NCBI GenBank assembly: GCA_913058255.1
Contig: CAJXQU010000001.1
Location: forward strand, 186,001-250,000
Source of the DNA: an uncultured Pseudomonadota bacterium
Lineage (GTDB): Bacteria > Pseudomonadota > Gammaproteobacteria > CAJXQU01
Length of the DNA: 64,000 nucleotides
Reading direction: 5' to 3'
Shown here piece after piece: positions 37,731 through 55,463 of the stretch (the stretch's first letter is position 1; every line of letters starts with the position of its first letter). The notes under the pieces are model-generated. The model was given only the letters and a program-made list of their open reading frames with translations, made no database searches and had not been told where the DNA came from. The position numbers and the translations under genes are program-made.

Positions 37731-38609
37731 TTATGTGACGGACTTCTTGCCTAAAAATTCATGCACGATTAGTCCAGCCATAATAAGTAACGTTCCTACC
37801 CAAATTTGATTTGTTAATGCTTCTGCATTGAAATAGTTTCCTAGTAACAAAGCTGAGATAGGCGTAATTAAGGTGATTAAAGCCACCCTGCTCGCTTCTA
37901 ACTTCTGTAAGACAAAGAAGTAGAGAATAAAGCCAATGACTGAGCCCATAATGCCAAGGTATAAAATGGCTAAAATAGATCGAGTTGGAAGTTCTGTGGG
38001 TAGGTTTCCATCGATGACATACCAACTAACTAAATAAGCAGGTAAGGCAAATAGCAGTGCGCCAGTGGTTGTGGATAATGATGAAATATGTGCATCCACT
38101 CGTTTCACCCAAATTGCGCTGAGAGTATGGATAAGTGTTGAAACCATGACGGCAATGAACCCATAATAGCTGTTCTGATCTAGGCTTTCTGTTGTCCAAA
38201 AAATAACAATTAAGCCGAATAAGCCAATCAGACTACCGATAATTTTATTCATGGTCAGCGTACTTTCGCTTAGAAACTTATGTGCGATTAATCCTGTTAG
38301 CATGGGGGAAGCGCCGAAGATAACCGCGACCCAACCGGAAGGAATAAATTGCGCTCCCCAATAGACAAACATCATAGCAAAGTAAATTCCAAAGCTAGCA
38401 GCAAGGTAGGTTTGTCGAGCAGATTTATGCCATGGTAACGTCATTCCTTTGAGGCGTAATAAAAGCAGGCAGCTGATCGTGGCAATCGTCATTCGACTAG
38501 TAATCGCAAATATAAAACCAACACCTTCACTACTCCATTGTATAGCGAGGGGTGTTGTCGACCAGATAATGGTTACACTAGCAAAAGCGAGTGTTACTTT
38601 GTATTTCAT
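37731..38609 (-). CDS. EamA/DMT family transporter
   Basis: The 292-residue integral membrane protein has ten predicted helices in two EamA repeats (first near FAITSRMTIATISCLLLL, second near TGALLFALPAYLVSWYVI and EASRVALITLITPISALLLG). These proteins export amino acids or metabolites. The substrate is unknown. A candidate small RNA with its own terminator lies 38 bases upstream on the same strand. Confidence 0.88.
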   Translation of the reverse strand: MKYKVTLAFASVTIIWSTTPLAIQWSSEGVGFIFAITSRMTIATISCLLLLRLKGMTLPWHKSARQTYLAASFGIYFAMMFVYWGAQFIPSGWVAVIFGASPMLTGLIAHKFLSESTLTMNKIIGSLIGLFGLIVIFWTTESLDQNSYYGFIAVMVSTLIHTLSAIWVKRVDAHISSLSTTTGALLFALPAYLVSWYVIDGNLPTELPTRSILAILYLGIMGSVIGFILYFFVLQKLEASRVALITLITPISALLLGNYFNAEALTNQIWVGTLLIMAGLIVHEFLGKKSVT

Positions 38610-38646
38610 TGTTCCCTTCTCGGTTCGTTGTTATTTATGTCTAGGC

Positions 38647-38680
38647 AAAAAAAAAGGCTTCAGATTTTGTCCGAAGCCCC
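38647..38680 (-). terminator. Intrinsic terminator of the candidate sRNA
   Basis: On the minus strand GGCTTC (38678-38673 complement) and GAAGCC (38661-38656 complement) form a stem, extendable with TC/GA, followed by nine T. It is among the strongest terminators in the window and lies upstream of the EamA start codon. Confidence 0.9.
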
Positions 38681-38807
38681 TTTTAGAGTTTTTATGTTTA
38701 AGTATTGATATTGATCTAAAACATTTTCTCCAGAGCACACGGGACTGTCCATCGCAGCAGAATGCGAGGATGGCGTAAGACTTGCTGGGTGTGTTGAAGG
38801 TCCATGG
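38647..38807 (-). ncRNA. Candidate structured small RNA or EamA leader
   Basis: Minus strand: -35 TTGACA (38842-38837), 17-base spacer and -10 GAGAAT (38819-38814) predict a start near 38807. The RNA would be about 160 nt, ending in the U9 terminator at 38647. It is more G+C-rich than its surroundings. Nested pairings are visible: CCATC/GATGG around a CTCGCATTCTGCTGC loop, inside CACAC/GTGTG, inside CCA/TGG with TCTC/GAGA. Four GGA triplets occur, two as AUGGA. No 6S, SRP, tmRNA or riboswitch consensus was recognised. It could be free-standing or a 5' leader of the EamA gene with early termination. Confidence 0.6.
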
Positions 38808-38847
38808 CGCGAGATTCTCTGCCTATAGTCAGCTTTTGTCAAGTAAC

Positions 38848-38861
38848 AAACTTATAAGTTT
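38848..38861. promoter_or_regulatory. Perfect 14-bp palindrome upstream of the sRNA promoter
   Basis: AAACTTATAAGTTT is a perfect palindrome six bases upstream of the predicted -35 of the minus-strand sRNA candidate. It could be an activator site. Confidence 0.45.
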
Positions 38862-38942: not shown

Positions 38943-39446
38943 ATGAACAAGCCATCAGATAAATTTGTAGAGGCCTATCATCGGATGATGGAGCATACTC
39001 AAGATGCTTTGAAAAATTCCATCGATGAGGCAGCTCCTCAGATAAAAAAAATGATCGACAACGCCGTCGAGCATACGGTCGAGGTCAGCGAATTAACCAA
39101 GGAGGAGGCTAAAAAGGTCGGTGACTATTTACGTCGCGATTTAGATGACGCGACTGACTATATGTATACGACGAAAAAGGAATTAAGTGATTGGTTTCGT
39201 TTTGATGTAGAGCTGGTTGAAGATCGCGTGAAAGACTGGTTTACAATAATTACCGACACAACACGATCAACTCTCGATAGTCTCGCTGAAAATGCCGAGC
39301 TGGCCGAGTGGCATACGGGGGAGATCACGAGTCCGGGCACCTTACGTTGTGATGAATGTGAACATGATTTACATTTTCACAAGGTAGGGCATATACCGCC
39401 TTGCCCCAACTGCACATCGACTAAGTTTCACCGCGTGCGCGAATAG
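38943..39446 (+). CDS. YbeL-like zinc-ribbon protein (DUF1451)
   Basis: The 167-residue cytoplasmic protein resembles Escherichia coli YbeL, which is also near lnt-corC-ybeY. The first 110 residues are charged and helical (LTKEEAKKVGDYLRRDLDDA). The C-terminus is a zinc ribbon with two CxxC pairs, CDECEHDLHF and CPNCTSTKFH. Function unknown. The start follows a perfect AGGAGG six bases upstream. Its 3' end overlaps the 3' end of convergent lnt by 26 bases. Confidence 0.85.
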   Translation: MNKPSDKFVEAYHRMMEHTQDALKNSIDEAAPQIKKMIDNAVEHTVEVSELTKEEAKKVGDYLRRDLDDATDYMYTTKKELSDWFRFDVELVEDRVKDWFTIITDTTRSTLDSLAENAELAEWHTGEITSPGTLRCDECEHDLHFHKVGHIPPCPNCTSTKFHRVRE

Positions 39447-52529: not shown

Positions 52530-55463
52530 TTAATAACAATTATCTATTTCGTTAGGTGGAGGACAAGGGGCTACTCGTTTTATTTGGTCATTAAAGACAT
52601 CCAAAGTTGGATCAAAACTACCGAGATCAAAAGTAGTGTCTTCATTGTTGTTATCACCTTCATAGTAGTCTGAAATAAGACCATTATCTCTATCTTGAAG
52701 CAGCACGGAAAGTTCTTGACCTGCAGCGATCACTAAAGCTTTTTTATCATCATTGTTTGGCGCCTGTCTTGTTGTGCCTGAGTTATCTGAACCATTAATT
52801 TTAAGACAGACTGCGCTATCTGCGCAGTTACCAGATTGACCAGGAAAGTGTTGTTCAGACTCTGCAACTAACATGAGTTGCTGCCAGTTATTGTGAAAGA
52901 ACCATTTTGGAAATTCATGATAAATTTTATATTCATCACCTACGTCTATTGTGAATTTAGGTGAACCTATACTTGCAATGACTATTTTGCTTTCATCGAT
53001 AGACTTTACTTTTCCTTTTGTAGAATTAGTGAAATTTTCCACCCAATCACCGACATTAACATTCCACTCCGGAAACTTAATATTAGTATCGATCAATGTT
53101 GTTGTATTACTCCCGGCTTTCGCAACACCATCTAGATTTTCATAATCCACATGAATGTTTGAAGTTGAAAAAGTTCCTGTTGTATTTTCGTCAATTGAAA
53201 TACTGGCATTCGTTATAACATCACCATTAGCGTTATGATCCGTTATCGAGGAAAAGAGATCTGCGGTATCAATTTCGGCATCCACATGGCGAACTTTTTC
53301 ACCTGCGATACTCTCTAAACGAGTATTCCCTTCATATTTAAAATCTACTTCATTAACTGTTCGAGTACGAACAAAATCCATTCGGATTAGAAACGTATCA
53401 CCAGCATCGAAAGTGTAATCACTGCCATTAAGGTCTGAAAATTGTTCAACAATAGCCGTCGAAAATATGGGGTTCAATGTATATGATCCAATGCTGGTGA
53501 GATAACCACTCGCTTTAAGTTCTCCTGCCCCATTTAAGATAATCATGCTGTCTCCAGTTTCAACTTCTGGAGTACCGGCTAACTGTAAGTTAATGACCAA
53601 GCTTCCATCATTCGACAAGCTCATTACTTCACCACCAACTTGATCCGTGGCGACATCAACGAGATAAAAATCTCCCGTATTCAACGAGGTAGGCATATTG
53701 GTTATTGATATTTCTGTTTCAGAGGAGACTTCGGAAACGATGCCTCTATTGCTACTACTTAGCTGTCGGTTATATATTTTAAATAGTCCATTGATGCTAT
53801 TTTTTGAATCATCTAAACTGACCAGAGCAAGGCTATGAGGCTGGACGGAAGTGATGATAAATGCTTCTTTATCGTTCTCGTTGTTTTGTAGGTCATAAAT
53901 AAGAATATCGTTAGGGTCTATCTTGGGGCGTTCGCTGGTGAAATTTTCTAGTAGATCGGCAGTTATTAACGTTTGATCATGGCTGCCGGTATAAGCGACA
54001 CCACTGCGTTTTATGACTTCTTCGCCATCAATATCAAGATCTTGGTCGATAATGACGAACTGTTCACCTTCAGAAAATGTATTGATGGTTTCTTTTATAG
54101 TCAACTGATTTGCACCGACACTTGCAATAGATCCTATCCAGTTTTGAGTAACATTTTTTATTTTATCATCGATATTAACCCGTTCTATTGCCACAGAAAA
54201 ATCTTGGGTAACGTCGATAATTTCATTTAAAGAGGTGCTTGTGTTTGCACCATACCTAAGGTATTGCAACTCTGAAATAGTCACACTATTAGAGAGGTTG
54301 TAAACGATATCCCCCCTTTCTACGCCGAGAGATTCAAAGGCTTGATCTGGATCTATAACATCTTCACTAACAGAGGAGTCTGCTTGCCCGAAAAGATAAA
54401 ACTGGCTTTCTGATAGCGTTCCTTCGCAGTTTGCAACATCCGCTTGAGTCCACAGACACTCTCCTTGCCCATATTCAATAGAAAAAGGAGTTAGAGAGCT
54501 TAAGGTTGTCCTATCACTCCAGTAATTAGTCTGACCGTGTGGAGGATTAAGTACTGGAGTGGGAGAAAAAATTGCATTTTTTATGTTTAAGCTAATTTCA
54601 AAGCTTGTAGAAAATGTCTCGTCTACTTCATGGTATGGGATTAACCCTTGTGTTGTAGCGCCGGTTTGGTCGCTGTTATAGCTGGAGGTTCTTGGTGAGG
54701 AAAATGGCGCAAGAAAAGGATAAACCCCACCGTTTCCATAAAGTCTGCGGTATTCATTTAGTTGAATAGCAACCTCTCCCATCACTCGCTTTTCAACAGC
54801 AGCCATTAACTCTTGTCGTGTGATGACTAAGACTTGATCATTAAAGTTTGAACTGGATGATGAAGATACAAAGTCAGCATCTCCATCACGATTATCACCT
54901 TCAAGATAATCGCTCGCTACGTTGCTTGGTCTATTCTGCCCTTCAAAACTAAAACCAGGAGCTAAAATAATAGCAACAATGTCAGAGGTTCCATCGATGG
55001 TTAGACCTCCAGCGGTTTCGCTATTTAATGGGAAATGTTTTATTGGATTATTTCTGAAATCATCTGATACGACATACCATAAATGTTCTCCGCTACTATC
55101 ACGGATTTCATCCAGTCCAATAAACTCCCAAGGTAACCTTCCAACTGTATTCGGGGAACATGGGGTTGGAGAACCATTCGGTGGATCGCTAACATCTGGG
55201 CAAGGAAGATAACCCGGGCCTGCATTAATATTTGTCGTTGTAGGATTATCAGGATAGCTAACCGCATATCCAATCAAAGCTTCTTTAGCCTTAACCAAAG
55301 CCTTCATCGTTACATCATCACGATAATATTGGGTTGCCGCTTTATTGAGTTTAGAAACGAGTAGTGTGGATGCACCAACGATCAGCAATAGCACAAACAG
55401 TAATAGAGCCGCCCCTTGTTGTTTTTTAGGGAGCTTGTTTTTTTGAGTTTTGAAATGCGCCAT
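52530..55463 (-). CDS. Giant minor-pilin-like protein with beta repeats
   Basis: The 977-residue protein has a PilX/GspK-like N-terminus: a basic stretch, then one membrane helix (QGAALLLFVLLLIVGASTLL, 16-35). Residues 60-220 match the smaller pseudopilin (GYLPCPD, GRLPWEFIGLDEI, HLWYVVSDDF). The unit A(I/V)IxAxG ... QxR ... DYxEGDN ... FNDQ occurs twice, at about 163-210 and 908-960. Residues 380-850 hold degenerate beta repeats, for instance VNIDDKIKNVT...GEQFVI (429-471) and VNVGDWVENFT...GDEYKI (802-847), with further ends GDFYLV, GDSMII and GDTFLI. A pilus-tip adhesin is a fair guess. No homology can be named with confidence. Confidence 0.7.
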   Translation of the reverse strand: MAHFKTQKNKLPKKQQGAALLLFVLLLIVGASTLLVSKLNKAATQYYRDDVTMKALVKAKEALIGYAVSYPDNPTTTNINAGPGYLPCPDVSDPPNGSPTPCSPNTVGRLPWEFIGLDEIRDSSGEHLWYVVSDDFRNNPIKHFPLNSETAGGLTIDGTSDIVAIILAPGFSFEGQNRPSNVASDYLEGDNRDGDADFVSSSSSSNFNDQVLVITRQELMAAVEKRVMGEVAIQLNEYRRLYGNGGVYPFLAPFSSPRTSSYNSDQTGATTQGLIPYHEVDETFSTSFEISLNIKNAIFSPTPVLNPPHGQTNYWSDRTTLSSLTPFSIEYGQGECLWTQADVANCEGTLSESQFYLFGQADSSVSEDVIDPDQAFESLGVERGDIVYNLSNSVTISELQYLRYGANTSTSLNEIIDVTQDFSVAIERVNIDDKIKNVTQNWIGSIASVGANQLTIKETINTFSEGEQFVIIDQDLDIDGEEVIKRSGVAYTGSHDQTLITADLLENFTSERPKIDPNDILIYDLQNNENDKEAFIITSVQPHSLALVSLDDSKNSINGLFKIYNRQLSSSNRGIVSEVSSETEISITNMPTSLNTGDFYLVDVATDQVGGEVMSLSNDGSLVINLQLAGTPEVETGDSMIILNGAGELKASGYLTSIGSYTLNPIFSTAIVEQFSDLNGSDYTFDAGDTFLIRMDFVRTRTVNEVDFKYEGNTRLESIAGEKVRHVDAEIDTADLFSSITDHNANGDVITNASISIDENTTGTFSTSNIHVDYENLDGVAKAGSNTTTLIDTNIKFPEWNVNVGDWVENFTNSTKGKVKSIDESKIVIASIGSPKFTIDVGDEYKIYHEFPKWFFHNNWQQLMLVAESEQHFPGQSGNCADSAVCLKINGSDNSGTTRQAPNNDDKKALVIAAGQELSVLLQDRDNGLISDYYEGDNNNEDTTFDLGSFDPTLDVFNDQIKRVAPCPPPNEIDNCY

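Follow-up and report, generated by a model that had tools for sequence, protein, structure and literature searches.

The DNA analysed here is a stretch of 64,000 nucleotides (the window) that carries on its minus strand a gene for an EamA-family transporter (EamA was formerly named DUF6), and the intergenic region upstream of this gene is bordered on its other flank by a divergent DUF1451 gene (Table 1). For the EamA gene no NCBIfam equivalog scored above its cutoff, the best models falling below. The original prediction had placed in the intergenic region a minus-strand TTGACA-N17-GAGAAT promoter and an RNA of about 160 nt ending in a U9 terminator just ahead of EamA. These elements were all recovered: the 5′ arm of a strong terminator hairpin starts at 38684, its U9 tail (38655-38647) closes a predicted RNA of 159 nt that begins at 38805, and 37 nt separate the tail from the EamA ATG at 38609. 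What had been overlooked, and was found by comparison, is that the predicted transcription start falls on an ATG, which opens an ORF of 29 codons (uORF). The stop codon of this uORF (end 38716) lies 31 nt upstream of the terminator hairpin.

Table 1. Positions of the features of the EamA leader locus in the window, and of leaders and leader-like elements before other genes in other genomes
Feature	Position	Strand	Basis or remark
-35 box TTGACA	38837..38842	-	Sequence inspection and promoter scan
-10 box GAGAAT, inside GGCAGAGAAT (relatives: gGCAgACTc)	38814..38819	-	17-nt spacer from TTGACA
Putative leaderless uORF, 29 codons and stop, MDLQHTQQVLRHPRILLRWTVPCALEKMF	38716..38805	-	ATG at expected transcription start, no room for a ribosome-binding site
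Trp-19 codon UGG, putative control codon	38749..38751	-	15 nt upstream of region 2
Region 2, antiterminator 5′ strand GCUCUGGAG	38728..38736	-	Fold and conserved UCUGYG-Y-GCCU motif in relatives
UUUUAGA, supports region 2 pairing	38721-38715	-	Predicted fold
Region 3, terminator 5′ arm and UCUAAAA ahead of the arm	38670..38687	-	Alternative partners: region 2 or terminator 3′ arm
Region 4, terminator 3′ arm UCUGAAGCC and U9	38647..38664	-	Terminator call
EamA-family transporter, putative regulated gene	37731..38609	-	Pfam PF00892, E 1.5e-32
Divergent DUF1451 gene	38943-39446	+	Other flank of the intergenic region
L264, leader before argD-type acetylornithine transaminase	G036:C1:401405-401514		Peptide MNNLKPMALRMRFMLRLRGVNTVLCVLGKG, Arg runs, no Trp
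L304, leader before argD-type acetylornithine transaminase	G240:C61:5482-5595		Peptide MTIQPCTHASRRRRPPLRVVASPCACRERYIRGLG, Arg runs, no Trp
L272, leader before putative lipoprotein-like alpha/beta hydrolase	G047:C10:46112-46231		Peptide with Trp and Arg
L302, leader before alpha/beta hydrolase, as L272	G133:C1:1235767-1235868		Peptide with Trp and Arg; distant genome
L301, leader-like element before transglutaminase-like gene	G301:C21:60586-60696		Poor -35 box
L300, leader-like element before small gene without assignment	G235:C11:9516-9616

Taken alone, the fold of the leader was of modest quality (z-score -1.98, 6 of 200 shuffles being equally good), and the window held 10 promoter-like sites compared to 10.2 in shuffles, i.e., no excess. 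The composite of a TTGACA box with at least five of six matches, an ATG at 35-37, an ORF of 20-45 codons, and a terminator occurred in 221,727 bases of DNA not centred on EamA only at this site, which was counted in three overlapping sources of these bases, and at one marginal place. The marginal match, at window position 53739 (plus strand, 0-based), consists of a TTGACA-like box, a 32-codon ORF, and a weak terminator (score 15.2).

The original prediction had recognised no known RNA class, in agreement with a cmscan search of the whole window against Rfam, which returned zero families at the gathering threshold. With lax thresholds, four matches at chance level were obtained between 38500 and 39000, the best of which (E 0.076) covered the terminator only, and an Rfam scan of 15 homologous loci gave a tRNA as its sole match and no riboswitch. 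When the 241-nt leader was used as a DNA query against 56 genomes, only the match to itself was meaningful, the runner-up being a 23-nt match with an E value of 7.8e-4; phage and plasmid records gave no match. In the sister genome G002 the DUF1451 region joins an ABC-transporter gene directly, and the leader and EamA are both missing, which indicates that the two were gained or lost together.

Distribution of the leader layout at EamA loci

Of 369 genomes of the class, 100 contained EamA homologues with E values of at most 1e-55, and the upstream stretch of each of the resulting 101 discovery loci was inspected. An intrinsic terminator was located within the last 220 nt at 82 of these loci, and most of these terminators share AAGGCC[G/A]CAGA...TCTGCGGCCTTTTT. 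At 69 of the 101 loci the terminator was combined with a short ORF whose ATG is spaced 35-38 nt from the beginning of a -35 box that matches at four or more of its six positions. A second collection was scanned as a hold-out, in which 80 named loci were reduced to 63 by removal of 16 duplicates of the first set and of one locus with a short upstream stretch. Terminator and ORF were found at 46 of these 63 loci, 40 of them with the 35-38 spacing. No terminator was found in the last 220 nt at 19 of the 101 discovery and 17 of the 63 hold-out loci; at two of the 19 (L307 and L308) the leader sits farther upstream. The leader was missing at several Methylobacter/Methylomonas-type loci. One of the organisms that possess it is the cultured Imhoffiella purpurea (L226). 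Among the 46 hold-out loci none of the neighbouring genes was consistently conserved, the largest cluster being represented in 10.

From both sets 109 leaders were pooled and clustered into 89 non-redundant ones, with those having a -35 offset outside 35-38 or fewer than four of six matches excluded. The offset between -35 box and ATG was 36 in 43 leaders, 35 in 27, 37 in 16, and 38 in 3, where the range of 35-38 had been a selection criterion but the concentration at 36 had not. The ORF had a median length of 31 codons and its stop a median distance of 27 nt from the terminator. Letters resembling a Shine-Dalgarno sequence preceded the ATG in only 2 of the 89 leaders, a C stood directly 5′ of it in 81%, and a weak -10-like GCAgACT was present 7-8 nt upstream. 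This promoter geometry suggests that the uORF is translated as a leaderless ORF.

Mutually exclusive helices and the placement of Trp and Arg codons

The last third of the ORF holds the motif UCUGYG-Y-GCCU-nn-GGA in differing reading frames, which marks it as an RNA element. It pairs with the terminator 5′ arm, one pyrimidine being bulged. Covariation among homologous leaders, which the original prediction had proposed as a check, was calculated from alignment A3, a structure-blind MAFFT alignment of 86 leaders in which L097, L100, and L104 were omitted because of long gaps before the terminator. Both terminator and antiterminator covary. In the antiterminator columns, 74.6% of the pairs were standard, the number of double-changed cells was 71 compared to 29.0 ± 8.8 after shuffling, and the covariation was 0.232 compared to 0.155 ± 0.010 (0 of 500 shuffles), with a maximum of 0.111 when the columns were slid by 1-3 positions. 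For the terminator, 91.2% pairing and a covariation of 0.310 versus 0.142 were obtained.

The duplex of each ORF with its own terminator had a mean of -16.83 compared to -14.74 with permuted terminators (0 of 10,000), and in the 25 leaders of the hold-out only, the corresponding values were -17.76 and -15.23 (0 of 10,000). We also folded the RNA downstream of the ribosome before the terminator 3′ arm is made. In these folds (n = 70), 0.67 of the terminator 5′-arm bases were paired upstream when the ribosome was placed at Trp, compared to 0.20 when it stood on the stop codon and 0.47 for shuffled upstream sequence; with the ribosome at Trp, the leader's own upstream sequence surpassed its shuffle in 61 of the 70 leaders. 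The position of region 2 as determined by pairing was noisy, with starts between -10 and -71 from the stop. Upstream of region 2 the alignment contained almost no conserved columns except the ATG, and a conserved aptamer was not seen.

The window terminator, GGGGCUUCGGA, differs in sequence from the consensus of the family. Its duplex with the window ORF was no better than shuffles (-14.9 versus -14.4 ± 2.2), and an unconstrained local alignment puts the best pairing elsewhere. The fold predicted for the ribosome at Trp-19 combines UCUGGAG:CUUCGGA with UUUUAGA:UCUAAAA. A covariance model scored the window leader, which was part of its training set, at 42.7 bits. For the window locus itself, the assignment as a putative attenuator thus rests mainly on homology of the layout.

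One Trp codon is present in 55 of the 89 leaders, two in 25, three in 2, and none in 7; the window uORF contains a single one. In 70 leaders, 88 Trp codons were counted in frame 0, versus 52 and 15 TGG triplets in the other frames, and 63 of the 111 Trp codons of the 89 leaders fall 12-17 codons before the stop, a span that comprises 19.6% of the positions. In the corresponding nucleotide interval from -53 to -36, the TGG counts of the three frames were 63, 17, and 1. Relative to region 2 as located by pairing, the Trp codons peak at a distance of 12-15 nt (22 codons in 70 leaders), which is about the distance from the A/P site of a ribosome to its leading edge; with region 2 located by alignment the peak was broader (9-20 nt). 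In the hold-out, TGG occurred 12-16 nt upstream of region 2 nine times in frame 0 and never in frames 1 and 2.

Arg was enriched at positions -5 to -2 of Trp (26, 32, 29, and 23% versus 12.7%) and also in a band 15-38 nt upstream of region 2, and the seven leaders lacking Trp were richer in Arg (5.4 versus 3.8 residues per peptide). Asp and Glu together were scarce in frame 0 of 70 leaders (3.0% versus 4.5 and 8.4% in the other frames). The peptide as such is weakly constrained, with a pN/pS of about 0.84 in 11 close pairs. As judged from sequence, a drifting peptide with placed codons is the pattern of a leader peptide and not of a functional protein. The original prediction had named conservation of an encoded peptide instead of structure as an outcome that would speak against it; in fact the ORF with its Trp and Arg codons and the structure are both kept, and it is the peptide sequence that varies.

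Leaders before genes other than EamA

With the covariance model built from the 86 leaders, 77 hits in 72 genomes were obtained in the 369 genomes at E values of at most 1e-6. EamA follows all but seven of these hits, as judged from the EamA coordinates and from the DNA inspected. Six of the seven precede other genes (Table 1), and the seventh, L305, is an ordinary terminator. The assignment of the two argD-type genes is based on NCBIfam PRK03715, with a score of 568.6 in G036 (cutoff 568) and of 514.9, below the cutoff, in G240. In their leaders Arg codons are placed 11-21 nt before region 2, with further ones at 29 and 35 nt in G036. This argD subfamily occurs in 7 of the 369 genomes, and in 2 of them the leader is immediately upstream. 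In G028 argD lies downstream of EamA, behind one Trp-less, Arg-rich leader (L034/L312); among six Trp-less discovery leaders, G028 was the only case with argD downstream, G036 being added as a Trp-containing comparison. In G011 (L311), argD is directly adjacent to a different DMT gene.

A second EamA paralogue has leaders at 4 of 24 loci, each with two Trp codons, which are adjacent (WW) in two cases; the -35 box of one of these leaders is poor. The combination of Arg runs with argD and of paired Trp codons with the second EamA paralogue favours amino-acid sensing, and codon identity tends to follow the gene in these sequences, though Arg and Trp co-occur before EamA. The second EamA-like gene of the window genome (L343, G000:C24:21634-22506) is preceded by TTGACA and, at 38 nt, by an ORF with KRW, MNNSTFILSLLEVKLLKRWQFLPAGLLRSV; only a degenerate hairpin and no clear terminator follows this ORF. 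Twenty weaker model hits were inspected, of which one (L327) is a convincing leader. L276, L278, L280, and L282-L284 proved to be either plain terminators or hits that lack a leaderless ORF. Several contigs of G040 gave 17 weak hits, several of them on both strands at one place, which look as if they came from a family of palindromic terminator-like repeats.

Proposed attenuation of EamA transcription and competing readings

At the leader, an ORF lies between promoter and terminator, the terminator precedes the gene, a mutually exclusive antiterminator overlaps the ORF, and the codons are placed relative to it, as is characteristic of attenuators. We therefore consider it very probable, on comparative grounds, that EamA is controlled by ribosome-mediated transcription attenuation through a leaderless uORF. 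RNA polymerase would start at the A of the ATG or no more than 1-2 nt away from it, which would place the leaderless ORF, about 30 codons long, at the beginning of the message. Undelayed translation would take the ribosome to the stop codon, where it would cover part of region 2; region 3 would then pair with region 4, and transcription would terminate at the U-run to give the RNA of about 159 nt. If the ribosome stalled in the Arg/Trp zone, its leading edge would halt just upstream of region 2, which could then pair with region 3, no terminator would form, and EamA would be transcribed. A terminated form of about 160 nt and a read-through form are expected. The comparison shows the ORF geometry, the terminator, the covarying antiterminator, and a frame-specific, register-locked Trp codon; we infer that the uORF is translated, that ribosomes stall on it, that polymerase then reads through into EamA, and what the signal may be.

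Slow decoding of the Trp codon at low Trp-tRNA appears to be the likeliest single signal, though we give it somewhat less than an even chance. In attenuators that respond to an amino acid, two or more control codons are usual, and sensitivity drops when there are fewer (PMC1183508, excerpt). The window uORF falls short of this number, and the predominance of single Trp codons among the EamA leaders speaks against a simple Trp attenuator. As a second signal, of lower probability, an inhibitor of translation or an arrest of the nascent chain is possible, and Arg-tRNA is an unlikely third.

Attenuators of the enterobacterial trp and his operons have a normal 5′ leader and a ribosome-binding site. 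In the excerpts of the literature considered here, they share with the EamA leader the race between ribosome and polymerase and the regulatory codons, but precede biosynthetic operons and have runs of control codons (PMC1183508). The nearest relative in kind in these excerpts is the trpL attenuator of Sinorhizobium meliloti, whose RNA has the start codon of the leader ORF at its 5′ end and whose terminated RNA, rnTrpL, and peptide, peTrpL, act in trans (PMC7298713). The EamA leader is predicted to share with it the leaderless uORF at the RNA 5′ end, control through Trp codons, terminator and antiterminator, and a short terminated RNA. However, the trpL ORF of this alphaproteobacterium encodes 14 aa, contains several Trp codons in a row, and lies upstream of trpE(G) (PMC7298713), whereas the EamA leader has about 31 codons with mostly one Trp in an Arg-rich zone and stands before EamA in Gammaproteobacteria. 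The leaderless Cys-codon uORFs of mycobacteria are likewise small and place control codons before regulated genes, but use Cys codons and belong to Actinobacteria (PMC9031893, PMC4633059). BmrB of Bacillus subtilis is a small ORF upstream of BmrC/BmrD that mediates ribosome-dependent transcription attenuation of a transporter, which differs in being a drug-induced ABC transporter of Firmicutes (PMC4191407). Neither DUF6 nor "leaderless" was found in the excerpt of the attenuator survey PMC2965389, and a full-text search confined to the open-access PMC literature gave no paper whose entry describes an EamA leader peptide.

The same attenuator might be triggered by a ribosome-targeting compound or by arrest of the nascent peptide, rich in Arg and Trp, in which case EamA would serve as the efflux pump, comparable to BmrB-BmrCD. 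EamA-type transporters are often exporters, and the single Trp codon of most leaders, the Arg enrichment just before it, and the depletion of Asp and Glu in frame 0 are all consistent with such a trigger. The Arg runs with argD and the paired Trp codons with the second EamA paralogue suggest gene-matched codons, however, and the peptide sequence is otherwise free, so that we regard this reading as possible but rather improbable.

As to the nature of the RNA, the original proposal of a small RNA or riboswitch-like leader holds in so far as a cis-acting structured EamA leader outside Rfam is concerned. A stand-alone small RNA or a ligand riboswitch does not fit the conserved anatomy, which consists of a leaderless ORF and mutually exclusive terminator and antiterminator. 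An independent trans-acting small RNA with EamA as a mere neighbour would account for a promoter and terminator of its own and for the length of about 159 nt, and terminated attenuator RNAs such as rnTrpL can act in trans (PMC7298713, excerpt); it is nevertheless improbable, as the leader is kept with EamA at 69 of 101 and 40 of 63 loci while the rest of the neighbourhood is not conserved, both are jointly missing in G002, and the antiterminator covaries. A metabolite-binding riboswitch would explain a terminator/antiterminator switch upstream of a transporter, but it would leave the frame-specific codons unexplained, and with neither a conserved aptamer upstream of region 2 nor an Rfam riboswitch in the 15 homologous loci we consider it very improbable. 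Least probable of all is a CsrA/RsmA sponge or target, which had been suggested by four GGA triplets: these are real, but the alignments contain no conserved ANGGA hairpin loop, one AUGGA is the start codon plus GAC, the other is made of the A of CGA, UGG, and a further A (Arg-Trp-Thr), UCUGGAG belongs to the predicted antiterminator, and in relatives the GGA is part of region 2, the pairing partner of the terminator arm.

With ribosome-mediated attenuation as the preferred reading, the leaders may represent modular leaderless attenuators of Gammaproteobacteria in which codons at a fixed register are swapped with the gene, Trp for two EamA families and Arg runs for argD, such that the codon would reveal the cargo of an orphan DMT transporter, and the RNA of about 160 nt and the Arg/Trp-rich cationic peptide may act in trans like rnTrpL and peTrpL; we offer this wider proposal as a speculation that is less likely to be right than wrong. 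By the attenuator reading itself, a "small RNA" that had no assignment would become a switch that can be tested, present in a large proportion of the sampled Gammaproteobacteria with this EamA subfamily, many of them sulfur-oxidising symbionts and uncultured lineages. Leaderless amino-acid attenuators would thereby be extended to Gammaproteobacteria and to transporters that have no assigned substrate, and the Trp and Arg codons would provide a concrete clue to the substrate of EamA.
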